Origin: a virus
Strand: one strand, 5' to 3'
IMG/VR virus record: IMGVR_UViG_3300027852_000152
Span: 1 to 26,668 of that record
DNA: 26,668 bases
Made by a program: the position numbers and the translations under genes. The notes under the pieces were generated by a model that saw only the letters and a program-made list of their open reading frames with translations, had not been told where the DNA came from and did no database searches. Positions 6,025 to 26,640 of this stretch are shown one piece after another. The first letter of the stretch is position 1, and each line of letters starts with the position of its first letter.

Positions 6025-6055
6025 AACGGCTTAAGGCGTTCTCGCCTTAGCCGTT
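6025..6055 (-). terminator. Hairpin at the end of the capsid gene, attenuator-like
   Basis: A 13-bp stem with one bulged base (arms 6025-6038 and 6043-6055, core AACGGC..TAAGGCG) and a 4-base loop. It overlaps the last codons of the major capsid gene. No U-run follows on the minus strand, so it is not a textbook intrinsic terminator. It could be a partial terminator or an RNA 3'-end stabiliser. T7 also has a terminator just after its capsid gene, so the placement is suggestive. Confidence 0.6.
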
Positions 6056-7066
6056 GGTCTGAAGCGCCACGATGCGGATTTTCTTGCGGTCCACGACACG
6101 GTTCCAGTTGGCGGCAAGCGCCAGTTCCGCGTTGGTTGGGCTCTTGCCCGCCATCGACGTAGACGAAAACGCAATACCGCGTGGATGCATGACGAAGTTC
6201 ATGCGTGAGAACAGCGTTTCTTGACCGCTGCCAGCGCCAGCGGCTTCGTCGCGTTCAACCGCCGTCGGTGTTTTCGGCATGCCGTCGGCATAGGCGACAG
6301 AGCCTTGACCCAGCAAGAACGTGGTGTAGGTGATGCGGTTTGTGCCAACAACAGCAGGCAGCGCATCATCAACGACGACGCGTTTGTCGATGTACTTCTG
6401 GATGGTTGAACTGCCGTCCGAGGTCTTTTCGGTGGTGATCAGATCTTGTTTCAAAAGCGACGCATGAACCACGGAATGCATGGCGATCATGGACAGCCCG
6501 CCGGAGGCATCACCCATGGTTTGCATGGCGTTGATCGCCGCAGTGCCGCTGATCAGTTCCGCCGCTGCAGGCGCGGCAAGGTCGTCGGTGGCAATGTTCA
6601 CCACCATATCGCCCGAATCATTGGCAACGTTGTCAGCGATAAGACCGGTCAAAGAGGCGATCAGCTTGCGCTGTTTTTGGCGATTCCAGTACTCGGCCAC
6701 CAAATCACCCATCACTTTCATGGGGTCGGTGTTGGCACCTTTTCCGGTCAGGTTGGCCGTCAAGTCCATGGACGACCAGGAATTGTTCAAGAAGTGCTGA
6801 ACCGCCCGGTCTTGCCCGCTGGTGATGTTCCCCGGCGTGGATTTTACGGCGGGGTCGTCGGAACTGATGTTGGCTTCGTCATCGGCCAAATCAGTCCAAA
6901 ACGGAACGTCGATAACGCTGCCACCGGCTTGGGCCAGGCGGGTGATATCGGGATGCGACGTGATGACGCCGGATTGATAAAAAGCGTTCGTTTCCGTCGA
7001 GCGCTCAACGACGTAATCGGTAAACGTTGTCGGTTCGACAACATCAGAAATGCGAACCTCAGCCAT
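6047..7066 (-). CDS. Major capsid protein
   Basis: A 339-aa coat protein. The N-terminus (ISDVVEPTTFTDYVVERSTE, residues 5-24), the GGSVIDVPFWTDL segment (about 49-61) and the DDPAVKSTPGNITSG segment that follows are typical of the Gp13-like major capsid family, which has an HK97-type fold. Length is close to T7 gp10A (345 aa). The C-terminal part (FVMHPRGIAFSS, then a helix near NAELALAANWNRV) is also usual. The start at 7066 has AGGAG ten bases upstream. It lies directly downstream of the scaffold gene and is followed by a strong hairpin, as expected for the most highly expressed virion gene. Confidence 0.88.
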   Translation of the reverse strand: MAEVRISDVVEPTTFTDYVVERSTETNAFYQSGVITSHPDITRLAQAGGSVIDVPFWTDLADDEANISSDDPAVKSTPGNITSGQDRAVQHFLNNSWSSMDLTANLTGKGANTDPMKVMGDLVAEYWNRQKQRKLIASLTGLIADNVANDSGDMVVNIATDDLAAPAAAELISGTAAINAMQTMGDASGGLSMIAMHSVVHASLLKQDLITTEKTSDGSSTIQKYIDKRVVVDDALPAVVGTNRITYTTFLLGQGSVAYADGMPKTPTAVERDEAAGAGSGQETLFSRMNFVMHPRGIAFSSTSMAGKSPTNAELALAANWNRVVDRKKIRIVALQTNG

Positions 7067-18059: not shown

Positions 18060-18310
18060 CACACCCTCCCCCAAGACACCGCCATGGCGGACATACCGAC
18101 ACGGACAAAAGAAGTGGGCCGGGGCGAACGCACGGAACAATCCGCACCCTCGCCACCGGCCCCAGTTGGCGCTTGGTGGAGGCGTAAACTGTGGCGGTGC
18201 TGGTCGGTGCTGGGCAGCGCCCGACCATTTCGTGCACCGGACGCACCGCGCGCCCGGCTTTCACCTCGGGGGGAGGATGAAATTAGCAAATTCTGAATTT
18301 TATTCTTCAT
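18060..18310 (-). other. GC-rich structured leader, with a doubtful 83-codon ORF
   Basis: This stretch precedes the ASCH gene and is much more GC-rich than the AT-rich block next to it. It holds clear inverted repeats: TTTCACCTC (18259-18267) with GAGG-A-TGAAA (18273-18282), and GGTCGG (18202-18207) with CCGACC (18221-18226) enclosing an inner GCTG/CAGC pair. An ORF from 18310 (GGGGG five bases upstream) ends in TGATG at the ASCH start, which would allow coupling. Its Ser/Arg/Gly-rich product has no recognisable domain. An untranslated structured RNA, or a leader acting on transcription, fits as well as a gene. Confidence 0.4.
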
Positions 18311-18438
18311 TTAAACCCCCTGTTGCTTCGATCTGCACAATCAAAAAAACACTATATTTTGTATTTATTTGACTTACCCACAATACGGATAGGTCAATGA
18401 TTCTTTAATCTTTACTCAATTCTTAAAAATGTCTTAAG
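18311..18438. other. AT-rich intergenic block, probable leftward promoter region
   Basis: A strongly AT-rich block between the HTH gene's terminator and the GC-rich leader. On the minus strand it offers several poor hexamer pairs (for example TTGTGG at 18383-18378 with AT-rich -10 candidates 17-18 bp on), but none is convincing. Since the leftward genes need a promoter and none is seen in the GC-rich leader, it probably lies here. The GGGACA/TGTCCC operator of the control region is absent. Confidence 0.35.
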
Positions 18439-18470
18439 TGCCCCTGCTGACGCGCCAACGTCAGCGGGCA
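18439..18470 (-). terminator. Intrinsic terminator-like hairpin after the 86-aa HTH gene
   Basis: Arms TGCCC-CT-GCTGACG (18439-18452) and CGTCAGC-GGGCA (18459-18470) form 12 base pairs with a two-base bulge and a 6-base loop. It begins one base after the HTH stop codon. On the minus strand a T5 run follows about nine bases later. This would stop the short repressor transcript before the leftward arm. Confidence 0.65.
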
Positions 18471-18471
18471 A

Positions 18472-18732
18472 TTAGGCGGCGCGAAGTTGCGCCAATTCAG
18501 AAAGGACTTTCAAGGACACGCCTTTAAACTTCCTTTTTTGGGATGCCTTCACAGTGGCAGCCCAATAGCCATCAGGAATTTTGTTCCTCTGGCTCCATTT
18601 GCGAACCGCTTCGGGGCGAACCTTGCCGGGTGTGCCAAGCGCTTCATTAAGGTCGAGTGCGAATGAACCCGCATCCGGCCATAGGTCTATGATCTCTGAA
18701 AATGAACTCATCATGTCGCGACATTGGGACAT
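18472..18732 (-). CDS. Small HTH regulator (Cro/YdaS-like)
   Basis: An 86-aa protein (80 or 79 aa if the ATG at 18714 or 18711 is used). FSEIIDLWPDAGSFALDLNE (about 11-30), VRPEAVRKWSQRNKIPDGYW (about 38-57) and a following helix match the short helix-turn-helix regulators in which 'V..W..R..IP..yW' is the recognition and wing region. The ATG at 18732 has AGGGG five bases upstream. However, a promoter at 18749-18721 would start transcription at the ATG at 18714, giving a leaderless mRNA. The gene is transcribed away from the 169-aa regulator and ends at a hairpin. It is a candidate repressor or Cro partner for the operators between the two genes. Confidence 0.7.
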   Translation of the reverse strand: MSQCRDMMSSFSEIIDLWPDAGSFALDLNEALGTPGKVRPEAVRKWSQRNKIPDGYWAATVKASQKRKFKGVSLKVLSELAQLRAA

Positions 18733-18779
18733 ATTGTCCCCTATGTCAAGGACAAACTGTCTCGTGACAAAGTGTCACG
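18713..18779. promoter_or_regulatory. Operator cluster between divergent regulators
   Basis: Three related inverted repeats with a 3-bp centre are present: GGGACA-TAT-TGTCCC (18726-18740), AGGACA-AAC-TGTCTC (18749-18763, imperfect) and CGTGACA-AAG-TGTCACG (18763-18779). A perfect 12-bp palindrome, ATGTCGCGACAT, lies at 18713-18724. Centres of the first three are 23 and 15 bp apart. A half-site GGGACA also lies at 18802-18807 inside the 169-aa gene. The same motif recurs at 20348-20395, so these are probably the binding sites of one of the two HTH proteins. Confidence 0.75.
18721..18749 (-). promoter_or_regulatory. Promoter for the leftward HTH gene, leaderless candidate
   Basis: TTGACA (18749-18744), a 17-bp spacer and CAATGT (18726-18721) on the minus strand. 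The -35 is consensus and the -10 is weak. A start seven bases after the -10 falls exactly on the A of the ATG at 18714. The first operator lies inside the spacer and the second touches the -35, so bound regulator would block it. Confidence 0.5.
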
Positions 18780-18790
18780 GAAGGGGTTCG

Positions 18791-19300
18791 ATGATGTTTA
18801 TGGGACAAAGCCTTACCAATTACGAAAAAGGGATCATGGCGCGCACGGTTGAAGCGCGAAAGAAACGCTTCCCCAATCAGACCGAGATCGCCGCCAAAAT
18901 TGGCGTTACCAGAGAAACCTATGCAAAGTATGAAAATCGCGGCGTAATCCCCAGCCGCTATATTTCTGCATTTTGTGAGGCTGTTGGAATTAGCGAGAGA
19001 TATTTACTGACCGGCGAGGCCGCCGACGCCAACCTCGCGCCACACACACAAACAGAACCGCCCCTATCCACCGATGAAGTTGAAAAACTGGTCTACGACT
19101 CCGTGGTTGAGGCTTGGCTGATCGCCGACGAAAACGAATTTGAATTCGTCCACACGGAATTCGCCAAGCTAGTTTCGAGCGTCGCCATGACGTTCTTGTC
19201 GATCAAGCAAAAAAACCCAGACATGGACGATCAAAGCGTCAAGGCCGCCACCCATGCGGCGATCGACAACGTGGTGCGCGGCGTCAAATTCGGCGGTTAA
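18791..19300 (+). CDS. CI-like HTH repressor without protease domain
   Basis: A 169-aa protein starting at 18791 (or 18794), with AAGGGG four bases upstream. The helix-turn-helix domain spans about residues 17-75 (FPNQTEIAAKIGVTRETYAK, then GVIPSRYISAFCEAVGISER, ending YLLTGE). After a Pro/Thr-rich linker the C-terminal 75 residues form an acidic helical domain that could dimerise. There is no S24 Ser-Lys peptidase domain, so RecA-driven self-cleavage as in lambda CI is not expected. Induction would need another route, perhaps the partner HTH protein. It lies beside the operator cluster and is transcribed towards the early operon. Confidence 0.75.
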   Translation: MMFMGQSLTNYEKGIMARTVEARKKRFPNQTEIAAKIGVTRETYAKYENRGVIPSRYISAFCEAVGISERYLLTGEAADANLAPHTQTEPPLSTDEVEKLVYDSVVEAWLIADENEFEFVHTEFAKLVSSVAMTFLSIKQKNPDMDDQSVKAATHAAIDNVVRGVKFGG

Positions 19301-19354
19301 GCACGCACTTTACCGCCAACGATACCTCCTTAAAATTGCACGCAAAAAAGACTA

Positions 19355-19383
19355 TTGACGCTTTAGTTGCGCATAACGATAAT
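19355..19383 (+). promoter_or_regulatory. Near-consensus sigma-70-type promoter for structured RNA
   Basis: TTGACG (19355-19360), a 17-bp spacer and GATAAT (19378-19383); each hexamer differs from consensus by one base. A start seven bases after the -10 is A19390, the first paired base of the folded RNA described next. No GGGACA operator overlaps it, so it may be active in the lysogen. It is the best-matching promoter I find in the window. Confidence 0.7.
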
Positions 19384-19389
19384 GCCGCT

Positions 19390-19527
19390 ATGCACCCACT
19401 GCGTGAAAAGCCGATACGGGATGCAAAGAGGGTTACCTCCCCTCTCACAACGCCGGGCAATCTCACCTGCCCGTCTGGATTAAACCAGCCGTACCGGACC
19501 CTAGCCAGGGCACGCGATACGATGCAT
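19390..19527 (+). ncRNA. Structured leader RNA, unknown class
   Basis: About 138 nt with nested pairing. Outer helix ATGCA (19390-19394) / TGCAT (19523-19527). Next GCGTG (19401-19405) / CACGC (19511-19515). Then CCGATACGG (19411-19419) / CCGTACCGG (19489-19497), eight of nine pairs. Inside are three hairpins: AGAGGG/CCCTCT (19427-19432, 19440-19445), CGGGCA/TGCCCG (19454-19459, 19468-19473) and CTGG/CCAG (19475-19478, 19485-19488). A fourth small hairpin CCCT/AGGG lies at 19499-19510. The fold begins at the predicted +1 and ends one base before a G7 ribosome binding site. The CCTC in the first hairpin loop is complementary to that G-run. I match it to no known riboswitch. Confidence 0.6.
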
Positions 19528-19539
19528 GGGGGGGACCAA

Positions 19540-19695
19540 ATGAGCAATACGCGAGATAACATAAATTTGATTTCAGCAACAAAGCGTGACAATTCAACAC
19601 GTTGCATGCAGCCGTGGCTGATCGCCACCACTTTTTTATCGGGCGGGTCGTTCGTTATTTCATTGCTGTTAATGGTGATATTCGCTGTCAAATGA
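19540..19695 (+). CDS. 51-aa membrane peptide behind the structured leader
   Basis: The ATG at 19540 follows a G7 Shine-Dalgarno (19528-19534) by five bases. The first half is polar (MSNTRDNINLISATKRDNST). The second half is one hydrophobic helix, about residues 25-51 (WLIATTFLSGGSF, then VISLLLMVIFAVK), ending almost at the C-terminus. Size and layout resemble small hydrophobic peptides of type I toxin-antitoxin systems, small holin-like proteins, or phage superinfection-exclusion peptides. The sequence cannot choose between these. An in-frame reading extends upstream through the RNA region to 19336, but it lacks a ribosome binding site and crosses the folded region, so I reject it. Confidence 0.6.
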   Translation: MSNTRDNINLISATKRDNSTRCMQPWLIATTFLSGGSFVISLLLMVIFAVK

Positions 19696-19776
19696 CGATT
19701 ATTCGCATTTTGCAAACGGCGCTTACGACGCAAAACATACATATTCTCGTGATAACCGCTTTTACAGAATGCTAAG

Positions 19777-20097
19777 CTATTGTGTCACAACGCGATAAAT
19801 AGGTTTTAGTCCTAGGTAGCCATAGGCACCGAACCCGCATTCATAAGCGCCGCGTTTCATCATTGTATCGCCGCGCACCATAGCTTGATCCCACGCCCAC
19901 ACCTTGCAGGCGCTCACAGTGGCGAAACCTTCTAGGCGCTCAAGTTCCCACATACGATCGGCATCAGGATAATAATAGGCGTCAACAGTTTCCCACGGTG
20001 CAGGGCTCTCTGGCCAAAACAATGATGCGACTTCATTTTTTGGATTGCACCCCGTTAACGTGAATGCAGCGGCTATCATTAATACAACCCGCATCAT
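19777..20097 (-). CDS. Small secreted lipoprotein
   Basis: A 106-aa protein with a lipoprotein signal: a basic residue, hydrophobic stretch LMIAAAFTL and lipobox LTGC (14-17), so Cys17 would be lipidated. After it are aromatic-rich segments (VDAYYYPDADRMWELERLEG) and two Cys in VSACKVWAW and YECGFGAYG that could form a disulfide. 'C..W......YECG' is a pattern I recall from small exported alphaproteobacterial proteins. The start overlaps the 62-aa membrane gene by four bases (ATGA), with an alternative ATG three bases on. It may act in the envelope, for example in exclusion or as lysogenic conversion; it is not Pro-rich like Rz1 spanins. Confidence 0.65.
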   Translation of the reverse strand: MMRVVLMIAAAFTLTGCNPKNEVASLFWPESPAPWETVDAYYYPDADRMWELERLEGFATVSACKVWAWDQAMVRGDTMMKRGAYECGFGAYGYLGLKPIYRVVTQ

Positions 20098-20282
20098 CCG
20101 AACACCCCCCAAAGAATCGTGCCATATACAGCAGCTCCCAAGACAAATGACGCCGCCAAGCCCTGAATAGGGTGGCCGTTTTGGATGATTCCGAGCGTCT
20201 GCGCAGGCGTTTGGACCATTTTTAGAATGCTGGTCCCCACACTCACCCCGCCACCAATCAAAAACCAAGCCCATACTGGCAA
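20094..20282 (-). CDS. Two-TM small membrane protein, TTG start
   Basis: A 62-aa protein starting at TTG (20282-20280), with GGGAGGG four bases upstream. It has two hydrophobic segments (about 3-17, WAWFLIGGGVSVG, and 42-60, GLAASFVLGAAVYGTILWG) joined by a polar loop. This is a holin-like size and layout, but there is no endolysin next to it. It is coupled to the lipoprotein gene downstream and diverges from the rightward early operon. The pair may form a membrane complex expressed from the prophage. Function is unknown. Confidence 0.6.
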   Translation of the reverse strand: MPVWAWFLIGGGVSVGTSILKMVQTPAQTLGIIQNGHPIQGLAASFVLGAAVYGTILWGVFG

Positions 20283-20347: not shown

Positions 20348-20395
20348 GGGACATTTTGTCCTTGACCTGCGCCTCGATATAGGACATTATGTCCC
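20348..20395 (+). promoter_or_regulatory. Rightward early promoter bracketed by two operators
   Basis: Two operators, GGGACA-TTT-TGTCCT (20348-20362) and AGGACA-TTA-TGTCCC (20381-20395), have centres 33 bp apart, about three helical turns. Between them a promoter reads TTGACC (20362-20367), 17-bp spacer, CATTAT (20385-20390). One operator abuts the -35 and the other covers the -10. They match the motif at 18726-18740, so the early operon is probably silenced by the same regulator. The divergent membrane/lipoprotein genes start about 65 bp to the left and may be affected too. Confidence 0.75.
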
Positions 20396-20850: not shown

Positions 20851-21351
20851 ATGAGCACCAACTACAGCACCGCCATTTTTCTGATCAACAAAGACGTTCG
20901 CGCCATCGCAGTGACGTATGAAGAAATCGACCTTACCAAAGACACCACGAAGATGAAGTACCAACCGGCGTACTTGTCGGGCGGCAAGCTGCCCAACGGG
21001 GCGACGGTTTTCAAAACCATGGACCCTAAAATCAAGGTTGATGATTTTGTCATCGTCCCAACTGGCACTCGCCACGGCATGACCGTTTGCAAGGTTGTCG
21101 CAGCAGATATCGAAATTGATCTCGAAAGTGACAAGGAATGCCATTGGATTGTGGGCACGGTGGACACCACCGAATTTGAAAAAATTCGCCAACTGGAAGA
21201 ACAGGCGATCATTGCGATTAAGGCCGGTGAAGTTAAGGCCAAGCAAGCGACGCTCCGCAACAACATGCTGGCTTCTCTCGGCGACCATGCGCTCGACATT
21301 CCCATGCAAAACGTCATCGAACACAAACCCAAAACTGTAAAGGAGGACTGA
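20851..21351 (+). CDS. Conserved-looking early phage protein, unknown
   Basis: A 166-aa protein with GAGAGG upstream of the ATG. It begins MSTNYSTAIFLINKDVRAIA and includes FKTMDPKIKVDDFVIVPTGT (about 54-73), RHGMTVCKVV and HWIVGTVDTTEFEKI, then a long charged helix (about 115-150). The 'vDD.VvvPT.TRH.mTV.KVv' stretch recurs in early proteins of other phages in my memory, where it is uncharacterised. It looks like a small beta-barrel domain followed by a coiled-coil-like helix. Function is unknown; a role in recombination or replication is suggested only by neighbours. Confidence 0.6.
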   Translation: MSTNYSTAIFLINKDVRAIAVTYEEIDLTKDTTKMKYQPAYLSGGKLPNGATVFKTMDPKIKVDDFVIVPTGTRHGMTVCKVVAADIEIDLESDKECHWIVGTVDTTEFEKIRQLEEQAIIAIKAGEVKAKQATLRNNMLASLGDHALDIPMQNVIEHKPKTVKED

Positions 21352-21409
21352 CGCCCGCCCGCCGTCATGGATTAGGCCCTTGTGCTCAGTTCAAACCCCA
21401 GAGGGGGCC

Positions 21410-21583
21410 ATGACGGCCAAGCCTGTTTCGCATTCGCTCAACAGGTTAATGAACAAGTTCATTAAGCGGAAAAGCCGCAGCACTGACCCGGTGGGGTACG
21501 GCCACGGGGCCGAGTTTAGCGAAGGGTCGCGCTGCGGTGTTTTCCGACCAAACGAAGGACAGATCAATGGCGAGTTGCCCTAA
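21410..21583 (+). CDS. 57-aa basic protein, unknown
   Basis: The ATG at 21410 has GAGGGGG two bases upstream. The N-terminal half is basic and helical (LNRLMNKFIKRKSRS). The second half is Gly/Glu-rich with one Cys (GYGHGAEFSEGSRCGVF). The 58 bp upstream form a weak GGCCC/GGGCC pairing that could cover the ribosome binding site. It overlaps the zinc-ribbon gene by 17 bases. No family is recognised. Confidence 0.45.
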   Translation: MTAKPVSHSLNRLMNKFIKRKSRSTDPVGYGHGAEFSEGSRCGVFRPNEGQINGELP

Positions 21584-23503: not shown

Positions 23504-24541
23504 ATGTTCACCATCGAAAAAGCCGAACGCAAAGGCACGCCAGCGCTTATCGCCCTGTGGGGCGGGTCCGCTTCCGGCAAAACCTATTCCGCGTTGCGTG
23601 TCGCCCGTGGCCTTGTCGGCCCGCAAGGCAAAATTTGCGTGATCGACACCGAAAACCGCCGCGCCGAATTCTATTCTGATTTGGTCAATGGGTGGTTTCA
23701 CCTCGACTTACAGCCGCCGTTCACTCCAGAACGGTATACCCAAGCGATCGACGCATGCATTTCCTACGGTGCCGACGTGGTGATCGTGGACAGCATGTCG
23801 CATGTTTGGGAAGGCGAAGGCGGCGTGCTCGACATGGCCAACAGCAACGGCAAAAAGGGCGCGCAACAATGGGCTGCGCCGAAAATGGCCTACAAACGCA
23901 TGCTGAATCATCTATTGCGCGCACCATGCCATGTCATTTTCTGCCTGCGCGCCAAAGACACAATGGATTGGGACAGCGCCAAGCCAAAAAGCCTCGGGCT
24001 GACACCAATTAGCGGGAAGAACTTCATTTACGAAATGACGGTTTCTGTCTTGTTAGGCAACACCCAAATGCCAGCATTCCAAGGCAGCAATGGGGCCGTA
24101 ATGTGCGACCCGCAAATTCCCCCCGTTAAGGCTCCAGCAGATTTGTGGCACACCATCGTGCCAAACCAACACCTTGATGAAGATGTCGGACAAGCCATCG
24201 CCGCGTGGGTGGGCAGTGCCGCCGCGTTCGATTTCGACATGGCCGCCCTGCGAAAAGAAGCCCGCGACCTCGCGACCATGGGCCGTGCGCGCATGACCGA
24301 ATGGTGGGGCACGCAGGACAAGGCAAAACAAAAATCACTTCTGCCAATTAGGGACGAGCTGGGCAGTATTGCCGATCAAGCTGACCGTGAAGCCGCCGAA
24401 GCAGCAGAGAGCGGGCAAGGCGAAAATGTCAGCAACCACCTTGGTGACAACCCGCTTGATGACGCCCCCGGCGCATCTACGCCGCCGCAAAACGGTGGGT
24501 CAAATGAGCCCGCAAGCGACGGCATACCGTTCGACACATAA
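23504..24541 (+). CDS. Sak4-like RecA-fold recombination ATPase (AAA_24)
   Basis: A 345-aa protein. The ATG at 23504 has GGAGGT four bases upstream; an ATG at 23492 overlapping the previous stop lacks one. It has Walker A GGSASGKT (20-27), ICVIDTENRRAEFY (44-57), Walker B DVVIVDS (91-97) and a strand CHVIFCLRAKD (142-152). This is the layout of phage AAA_24 / Sak4 proteins, single-domain relatives of RecA/Rad51 that aid annealing. The C-terminal third is helical and then acidic and disordered, ending in ASDGIPFDT, which resembles the SSB C-terminal tip (…DDIPF). With the exonuclease upstream it forms a two-gene recombination system. Confidence 0.78.
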   Translation: MFTIEKAERKGTPALIALWGGSASGKTYSALRVARGLVGPQGKICVIDTENRRAEFYSDLVNGWFHLDLQPPFTPERYTQAIDACISYGADVVIVDSMSHVWEGEGGVLDMANSNGKKGAQQWAAPKMAYKRMLNHLLRAPCHVIFCLRAKDTMDWDSAKPKSLGLTPISGKNFIYEMTVSVLLGNTQMPAFQGSNGAVMCDPQIPPVKAPADLWHTIVPNQHLDEDVGQAIAAWVGSAAAFDFDMAALRKEARDLATMGRARMTEWWGTQDKAKQKSLLPIRDELGSIADQADREAAEAAESGQGENVSNHLGDNPLDDAPGASTPPQNGGSNEPASDGIPFDT

Positions 24542-24549
24542 CCCCCTTC

Positions 24550-24607
24550 GGCGGTGGTTGCGGGCGGGCTCCATCTCTCCCCTCCCACACCACCCGCAAT
24601 CGCCGCC
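24550..24607. repeat. Long imperfect inverted repeat after the recombination genes
   Basis: Two 18-base arms (24550-24567 and 24590-24607) pair throughout except for one C-A mismatch and two G-T pairs; the core is GGCGG...TTGCGGG. The loop is 22 pyrimidine-rich bases. It begins nine bases after the ATPase stop. No U-run follows, so it is not a typical intrinsic terminator, though it may end or protect the early mRNA. Together with the repeat at 24809-24854 it fills a gap of 332 bp that holds no convincing gene. Confidence 0.65.
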
Positions 24608-24808
24608 GGATCTAAACACTACCCATTCAGTCGCGCGGATCAGCCCCACCCGCGCCGGGCGTGACACTTAACCGGGGCCATCGACAGACAAGAAAGGCCG
24701 TTATCTTTTGGAAACCTTGGAACCGTTTTTCACAAACGCAAATTGCGTATCGCCAATCGTAGCGCCCGCGATCGGTCTACGGCCAACACTCTCGACCCCC
24801 CGTCACCT
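24608..24808. other. Non-coding gap before the recombinase
   Basis: No gene is supported here: readings from TTG at 24708 or ATG at 24743 run into the recombinase gene in other frames and lack ribosome binding sites. A short palindrome, CGCAA-A-TTGCG, lies at 24737-24747, next to the direct repeat TTGGAAACC/TTGGAACC at about 24709-24726. These could belong to a recombination or regulatory site of the serine recombinase. Confidence 0.35.
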
Positions 24809-24854
24809 GCCCCATGTGGGCGGCACGGTACGGGCAACCCCGAACGCATGGGGC
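24809..24854 (+). repeat. Inverted repeat in front of the recombinase ribosome binding site
   Basis: GCCCCATG (24809-24816) and CATGGGGC (24847-24854) are perfect 8-bp arms around a 30-bp GC-rich spacer. The recombinase ribosome binding site GGAGG (24864-24868) lies ten bases further on. It may be a leader hairpin or part of the recombination site; small serine recombinases often act on sites just upstream of their own gene. Confidence 0.5.
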
Positions 24855-24873
24855 CTCTTCACAGGAGGCTACG

Positions 24874-25461
24874 ATGTTACTCGGATATGCACGGGTTTCG
24901 ACAGACGACCAACGTCTGGACCTTCAACAAGACGCGCTCTCACAAGCGGGCGTGGCCAACGACAATGTCTATCAGGAACAAGTTTCGGGCGTCGCGACCA
25001 AGCGGCCCGAACTGGAACACCTGAAAAAGGCATTGAGACCCGGCGACACGCTGGTCGTCTGGAAACTGGACAGGCTGGGCCGCAGCGTCAAAGAACTGAT
25101 CGCGCTGACCGAATGGCTGCGCGAACGGGACATCGAACTTGTATCGATCAAAGACAACATCGACACGACCACGGCTGTGGGCAAGATGGTCTTTCACATG
25201 CTGGCGGCGTTCGCTCAATTCGAACGCGACATCATCAGCGAACGCACGATTGCGGGCTTGGCGGCAGCCCGCGCACGCGGACACCGGGGCGGACGCAAGC
25301 CAAAAATCACAAAGAAAATTCTCCGCGCCATGGAAGCACTGCTTTCCGATCCCACCGTGACGATGAAAGAAGTCGCGGATCAATTCCACGTGTCACGAGC
25401 AGCGATCTATCGCGCCCGGCAACGCGCAGCACAGGACAAAGCGGGCACCGTTGCCGCATAG
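24874..25461 (+). CDS. Small serine recombinase (resolvase/invertase family)
   Basis: A 195-aa protein. The ATG at 24874 has GGAGG five bases upstream. LLGYARVSTDDQRLDLQ holds the nucleophile Ser9 with R7. WKLDRLGRSVKEL (63-75) supplies the active-site arginines, and AVGKMVFHMLAAFAQFERDI (about 103-122) is the start of the long dimer helix. The C-terminal DNA-binding helix-turn-helix is MKEVADQFHVSRAAIYRARQ (about 165-184). All catalytic residues are present. It is of resolvase/invertase size, not a large phage serine integrase, so it more probably resolves or inverts DNA than integrates the phage. No invertible tail-fibre segment is seen in the window. Confidence 0.88.
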   Translation: MLLGYARVSTDDQRLDLQQDALSQAGVANDNVYQEQVSGVATKRPELEHLKKALRPGDTLVVWKLDRLGRSVKELIALTEWLRERDIELVSIKDNIDTTTAVGKMVFHMLAAFAQFERDIISERTIAGLAAARARGHRGGRKPKITKKILRAMEALLSDPTVTMKEVADQFHVSRAAIYRARQRAAQDKAGTVAA

Positions 25462-25470
25462 GCGGTGCTT

Positions 25471-26640
25471 ATGGGTGACAAGACCAAAATTACTTGGGTG
25501 CAAAACGAAGACGGCACGCCGGGGCACACTTTCAACCCTGTGTGGGGCTGCACAAAGGTAAGCCCCGGGTGCGACCACTGCTATGCCGAAAGCATGTCAA
25601 ATCGCTTTGGCAAGTGGTGGGGTCAAGGAACCCCACGCCGCGAGTTTGGTGATAAGCACTGGAATGACCCGTTGCGCTGGAACCGTAAGGCCGAAAAGAC
25701 GGGAATTCGTCACCGTGTATTTTGCGCATCGATGGCCGATGTGTTCGACAAAGATTGGCCAGATGGCACCCGTGAACGCCTTTGGGCGCTCATCAAAGCC
25801 ACCCCGTGGCTGGATTGGATCATCGTCACCAAGCGGATCGGCAACGCCAAGAAAATGTTGCCCGCTAATTGGGGCGACGGATACCCCAACGTGTGGCTTC
25901 TCATCACCGTGGTGAACCAGGAAGAAGCCGCCCGGGATGTGCCTAAGTTGCTGGACACACCAGCCATGTTGCGGGGCCTGTCCATTGAACCGCAGATTGA
26001 GAGCATTGATCTAACTGATTTAGAAACCACAACTGTTGGGGTGATGCATCATCAAGACGCCTTGAACGGCAATACCTTTTGGCCCTCTTTCGATGAACAC
26101 GGAAAGACTGGCGGAAGGGATTTCATGCGAACGGACAAGCAAGGCCTTAACTGGGTCATTTGCGGGGCAGAAAGCGGCCCTTGTCGTCGCTCGTTCAATG
26201 AAGATTGGGCACGCAGTTTGCGCGATCAATGCTGTGAGTCCGAAGTGCCGTTCTTCCTCAAGCAAATGCCCGGTGGCAACACCCGCAAGGGCGTGATCGA
26301 AACGCCAGAACTTGACGGCCAACAGTGGGTGCAACTCCCGCGTTCTGACACGCCAAACATAGCAATGAGTGACCTTCCCAGACTTAAAATCGGAGAGGTG
26401 AATATTGGCGAGATGGCCGCTGACTGGTTCATCGCCTTTATCCGAGATGGACAAGGTATCGACTACCTATTGGGCACCGTTTTACCCGACATCAAAACCA
26501 TCACTGACGAGGCTGTAAGTGCTGAGCGAAAGCGCTGTGCAGAGATAGCCAGAAACCACAAAACATTCGCGATAGGCGAAGGTGGTGATGTGGCTGACGC
26601 GATTATGTCCGTCCAAACAGACACGAAAACAGAGGATTAA
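25471..26640 (+). CDS. DUF5131 / phage Gp37-Gp68 family protein with C-terminal extension
   Basis: A 389-aa protein. I use the ATG at 25471 (a GTG at 25465 is possible; the ribosome binding site is poor, GGCGG about five bases upstream). FNPVWGCTKVSPGCDHCYAE (21-40) gives C27, C34 and C37 in a C-X6-C-X2-C pattern, followed by PLRW, VFCASMADVFD, WIIVTKR and GAESGP, the usual order of this family, thought to have a radical-SAM-like fold with an iron-sulfur cluster. Residues from about 295 on form an extra part ending in AERKRCAEIARNHKTF and an acidic tail, which I do not recognise. Function is unknown; DNA or nucleotide modification or repair is a guess. Confidence 0.8.
   Translation: MGDKTKITWVQNEDGTPGHTFNPVWGCTKVSPGCDHCYAESMSNRFGKWWGQGTPRREFGDKHWNDPLRWNRKAEKTGIRHRVFCASMADVFDKDWPDGTRERLWALIKATPWLDWIIVTKRIGNAKKMLPANWGDGYPNVWLLITVVNQEEAARDVPKLLDTPAMLRGLSIEPQIESIDLTDLETTTVGVMHHQDALNGNTFWPSFDEHGKTGGRDFMRTDKQGLNWVICGAESGPCRRSFNEDWARSLRDQCCESEVPFFLKQMPGGNTRKGVIETPELDGQQWVQLPRSDTPNIAMSDLPRLKIGEVNIGEMAADWFIAFIRDGQGIDYLLGTVLPDIKTITDEAVSAERKRCAEIARNHKTFAIGEGGDVADAIMSVQTDTKTED

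Follow-up and report, generated by a model that had tools for sequence, protein, structure and literature searches.

Does the DNA downstream of the repressor gene of this virus hold a gene for a small membrane peptide with a promoter of its own, and does a structured RNA leader set the translation of that peptide? The window, that is, the whole stretch of DNA analysed here, comprises 26,668 bases (positions 1 to 26,668 of the IMG/VR virus record IMGVR_UViG_3300027852_000152). The reading that we tentatively favour, at a little short of even confidence, is that this uncharacterised temperate phage carries an accessory gene of the moron type in its immunity region, with a putative promoter of its own and a leader that may tune production of a predicted membrane peptide.

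The lysogeny region and its host context

The features that surround the locus are as follows.

18472-18732, minus strand: cro-like gene, divergent from the repressor gene, with a weak carph-isopro match
18727-18777, no strand assigned: three GGACANNNTGTCC operators, identified by sequence, the outer copies degenerate
18791-19300, plus strand: CI-like HTH repressor gene (phrog_8, E 3.3e-12; Pfam HTH_3 above the cut-off)
19777-20097, minus strand: lipoprotein-like 106-residue ORF, convergent with the peptide gene
20094-20282, minus strand: hydrophobic 62-residue ORF, convergent with the peptide gene
20349-20394, no strand assigned: two GGACANNNTGTCC operators, both perfect, bracketing the rightward promoter-like site
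20362-20390: rightward promoter-like site, overlapped by the two perfect GGACANNNTGTCC operators

The two groups of GGACANNNTGTCC dyads likely form the operator set for the CI-like repressor. Between the repressor gene and the rightward operon lie the peptide element and the two small minus-strand ORFs, which converge on it from the right. The 106-residue lipoprotein-like ORF had insignificant matches only, to an Rz-like spanin (E 0.026) and to the Cor exclusion family (E 0.12). Beyond the cro-like gene, positions 18300-18440 are AT-rich (~33% GC), and stable hairpins are predicted there on either strand (z ~ -4.5); this stretch is probably a terminator region.

Positions 24814-26640 carry a serine resolvase-type recombinase followed by a DUF5131 gene, and this region shares 67.5% DNA identity over ~410 bp with a Skermanella plasmid gene (phage Gp37/Gp68 family protein), a match that hints at an alphaproteobacterial host. 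Among deposited phages the nearest terminase is that of Burkholderia phage BcepC6B (41%), while a viral contig from a metagenome and an assembly from an alphaproteobacterium contain closer relatives (47-48%). The lysogeny region was absent from all relatives examined that were found via the terminase or the recombination ATPase.

A promoter-like site and a frame for a putative small membrane peptide

Three features make up the proposed gene apart from its leader.

19355-19383, plus strand: sigma-70-type promoter-like site TTGACG-N17-GATAAT, 10/12 consensus bases
19528-19534, plus strand: G7 ribosome binding site (RBS), which can pair with the anti-SD CCUCC including one G-U
19540-19695, plus strand: 51-codon ORF with its start ATG at 19540, a polar N-terminal half and one hydrophobic C-terminal segment

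A preliminary description of this DNA had placed a promoter here with A19390 as the predicted +1, and it is present as described: TTGACG (19355-19360) and GATAAT (19378-19383) are separated by a 17-nt spacer, and A19390 is the seventh base after the -10. With both strands scanned, no other site in the window reaches 10 of the 12 consensus bases; by chance ~1.75 such sites would be expected per window, and none arose in 200 shuffles at the gap. A search of the sequence near this site found no repressor operators, so we may fairly infer, though not as a result, that the peptide gene is expressed in the lysogen. As judged by sequence, the ORF has one mark of a moron gene, as it lies in the lysogeny region behind a promoter-like site of its own that is apparently outside repressor control.

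The hydrophobic segment reaches a maximum Kyte-Doolittle mean of 2.41 over 19 residues. We scored the combination of a start codon with an RBS, an ORF of 30-120 codons and a hydrophobic 19-residue segment inside it, and when the gap (19301-19776) was shuffled 1000 times by mononucleotide, this combination never appeared. Four such ORFs exist in the whole window, including one antisense to gene 6047-7066 which is probably spurious. The sequence therefore bears out a short ORF for a putative membrane peptide in the lysogeny region, behind a G7 RBS and with a separate promoter-like site. Because the promoter match is unique in the window and the combination is absent from the shuffles, the 51-codon ORF, which lies between the gene for the CI-like repressor and the operators of the rightward promoter-like site, probably represents a genuine accessory gene of the "moron" type. 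Its codon usage is not coding-like (1.8% of coding windows score lower and 79% of non-coding frames score higher), and codon usage is also poor in the two small ORFs next to it.

Upstream, the peptide frame stays open as far back as 19336, and within it lies an ATG at 19390, on which the preliminary description was silent. Transcription from the A of this ATG would yield a leaderless message for a protein of 101 residues with a membrane anchor at its C terminus, in which case the leader would be coding sequence and its folding incidental. This ATG coincides with the predicted +1 and shares the frame of the peptide, which stays open through 101 codons to 19695, and leaderless messages are known for phage repressors, e.g. 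lambda cI transcribed from PRM. However, codon usage across 19390-19539 looks non-coding (lower scores in 0.9% of coding windows, higher ones in 91% of non-coding frames) and ATG19540 is preceded by a strong RBS, so a leaderless gene would seem quite unlikely. Two further candidates were rejected. The terminator-like hairpin at 19614-19628 inside the ORF was considered as a sign of a non-coding RNA, but such sites are equally frequent in shuffles. The 152-codon minus-strand ORF at 19284-19742 belongs to no family that we found, and its codon usage is non-coding in the 3' half and coding-like in the 5' half.

Predicted folding of the leader and possible competition for the G7 tract

The elements of the leader, all on the plus strand, are listed here.

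19390-19527: 5' leader, predicted to close end to end when folded alone
19390-19394 with 19523-19527: helix A, ATGCA with TGCAT
19401-19405 with 19511-19515: helix B, GCGTG with CACGC
19411-19419 with 19489-19497: helix C, CCGATACGG with CCGTACCGG, 8/9 pairs
19427-19445, 19454-19473, 19475-19488 and 19499-19510: four hairpins
19440-19447: CCCUCUCA, predicted to pair alternatively with AGAGGG at 19427-19432 (hairpin 1, RBS open) or with UGGGGGGG at 19527-19534 (RBS buried)

The three nested helices, the four hairpins, the G7 tract and the ATG were all found in the sequence as the preliminary description gave them, and when 19390-19527 is folded with exactly these ends, the structure that it drew comes out as the minimum-energy fold (-47.6 kcal/mol, z -2.64; one of 200 shuffles was as stable). 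Compared with 1000 dinucleotide shuffles, 0.8% are as stable and 1.3% close end to end. Only 0.2% of the 1000 match the stability of the leader alone and also have 95% or more of their length inside a single exterior helix, an optimistic figure in that the boundaries, although set by the predicted +1 and the RBS, were noticed after reading 26.7 kb. By these predictions the isolated leader is unusually self-contained. Its z score is less distinctive: values below -2.6 occur in 4.6% of 138-nt windows across the phage, a lower z is found for 8 of the 33 other segments upstream of genes, and an equally good local fold arises in 36 of 160 shuffles of the whole gap.

Once the G7 tract is included, the best fold differs (-52.9 kcal/mol with the RBS buried, as compared to -48.3 with G7 held open) and helices A, B and C drop to a predicted probability of 0.01-0.04. 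The nested helices, which had been put forward as the dominant structure, are thus 1-4% probable in silico in the RNA that includes the RBS, whereas a structured RNA class would call for the proposed fold to dominate there. This longer piece is also of ordinary stability (z -1.42, 16 of 200 shuffles as stable). The earlier suggestion that G7 could pair with hairpin 1 holds as a possibility; the best partner, however, is the 3' arm CCCUCU plus CA and not the CCTC of the loop.

Burial of G7 is usual for a leader of this composition, as G7 is on average 83% paired in shuffles and 16% of them bury it as deeply. The cost of opening it is 4.6 kcal/mol, versus 9.2 +/- 3.0 in shuffles, 96.8% of which cost at least as much. 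In this model the unusual feature is therefore the cheapness of the open G7, not its burial, which fits a leader that folds on itself in competition with RBS burial, as computed for one sequence with one energy model. It is possible that the leader could affect or tune translation of the peptide, or even act as a translational switch.

We hypothesize that the promoter-like site, away from the repressor operators, would transcribe the peptide gene in the lysogen from a start near 19390, and that the leader would fold on itself while being made. The emerging G7 tract and AGAGGG (19427-19432) would then be rivals for CCCUCU (19440-19445), with one leader fold freeing the RBS and the alternative fold burying it. 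The likeliest outcome would be that translation of the 51-residue peptide, with its single predicted membrane span, is tuned modestly and to a fixed level rather than switched by a ligand or an RNA. The peptide could perhaps serve in exclusion or another form of lysogenic conversion, a role suggested by its position and the absence of repressor operators at its promoter.

A stronger version would make the leader a bistable regulatory element, in which a protein, a small RNA or the kinetics of transcription and translation switches CCCUCU between its two competing partners, hairpin 1 and the RBS. The two mutually exclusive predicted folds lie just 4.6 kcal/mol apart and an open state as cheap is seen in only ~3% of shuffles, but these values come from one sequence and one energy model, G7 pairs with C-rich stretches in most shuffles (with the 16% that bury it as deeply), and there is no candidate factor. 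We therefore regard a bistable leader as rather unlikely. It would seem very unlikely that it is a genuine bistable leader, flipped by a phage or host factor, that controls an exclusion- or toxin-like membrane peptide in the lysogen and is the first of an undescribed leader class. The predicted gap between the buried and open states shrinks from 7.5 kcal/mol at 15 C to 3.8 at 42 C, too little for us to call the leader a thermosensor.

Relatives and known systems

Our searches of phages, plasmids, IMG/VR and about 385 bacterial genomes revealed no homologs of the leader, the peptide or the full repressor, the latter showing similarity at the HTH level only. The peptide had no peptide or toxin family matches, and an Rfam search of the leader gave no match. 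A covariance model (R1) built from the single leader sequence found only the window itself over 79 sources, and its one weak match in the 385 genomes, inside a GGDEF-like gene with the pairs broken, is a chance match. With no homologs found, no Rfam match and R1 at chance level, the idea of a possibly new RNA class is unsupported on present evidence. Records very near the window may have been left out of the searched collections, so the absence of relatives is no proof that there are none. Several other matches were discarded: the single plasmid match for the peptide (E 0.4) falls within a large polyketide-synthase-like ORF but in another frame; a peptide match in the 385 genomes is interrupted by stops, and its E of 0.005 for one genome amounts to chance for 385; DNA matches to the leader and region are 30-55-nt chance matches only; and an exact 19-mer of hairpin 2 in two viral contigs, which have nothing else in common with the window, is a coincidence.

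The simplest alternative is that nothing specific is encoded here and that a non-functional intergenic stretch happens to contain a promoter, folds and an ORF. The lack of homologs found, a fold z score that is common in the phage, codon usage that is not coding-like and the ~1.75 such promoters expected per window are all consistent with this. Against it, the promoter, the G7 RBS and the hydrophobic ORF occur together in the correct order and spacing, and 0 of 1000 shuffles gave the combination of RBS, ORF and hydrophobic segment; we thus consider it unlikely that the locus is a product of chance.

The accessory-gene reading is favoured because the best promoter match in the window is without operators, whereas the promoter at 20362 is overlapped by them, and because a position downstream of the repressor is usual for such genes. 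The absence of the RBS, ORF and hydrophobic-segment combination from the shuffles, the self-contained leader and the cheap open G7 likewise argue for it. It is weakened by the lack of any homolog found for leader or peptide, and hence of conservation, as well as by the non-coding-like codon usage, the number of promoters expected by chance and the ordinary stability of the RNA including the RBS.

Accessory genes are often found downstream of the repressor, as in the case of lambda rexAB and BTP1 bstA (PMC7067206). Like these (PMC7067206, PMC8585504), the 51-codon gene is an addition to the immunity region that follows the gene for a CI-type repressor, and it is likely to be expressed in the lysogen; the likeness is one of position, with no sequence relation found. 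In contrast, bstA encodes a large cytosolic defence protein and is transcribed from the cI promoter (PMC7067206, PMC8585504), while the gene described here has 51 codons and its own promoter-like site. The BTP1 aba self-immunity element (PMC8585504), a short element at the 5' end of bstA just downstream of the repressor, is placed like our leader. However, aba acts as DNA and spans 63 bp, and the likeness is again one of position. Small superinfection-exclusion proteins of phages are likewise small membrane peptides of the lysogeny region, although no homology to the 51-residue peptide was found.

Membrane type I toxins are usually shorter than 60 residues with one helix, and RBS-burying mRNA elements are known for some of them (PMC8309996). 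The peptide, with 51 residues and one hydrophobic segment behind an RBS that can be buried, resembles TisB, Hok and Ldr in these predicted respects (PMC8309996), and the locus might be a type I toxin-antitoxin-like unit in which a membrane toxin is silenced by RBS burial together with an antisense RNA. Unlike these systems, it has no toxin family match, and the minus-strand promoter-like sites within 19300-19800 reach at most 8/12 consensus bases, leaving no visible promoter for an antisense antitoxin; such a unit is highly improbable. If the gene is real, it would encode an orphan membrane peptide of the lysogeny region, its translation perhaps set by the leader, and this peptide might be considered for a part in excluding phages or modifying the host. 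For now it is one among many orphan accessory genes of temperate phages.

Finally, two other segments of the window stand out in structure prediction. The strongest predicted fold of the scan lies at 21403-21550 (minus strand z ~ -7 at 21421, plus strand z ~ -3.8), between and over very small ORFs after gene 20851-21351, and is by prediction a better structured-RNA or terminator candidate than the leader. A long near-perfect inverted repeat at 24521-24646 (~18 pairs, local z ~ -5), just past the recombination ATPase gene (stop 24541), is possibly a terminator or processing site.
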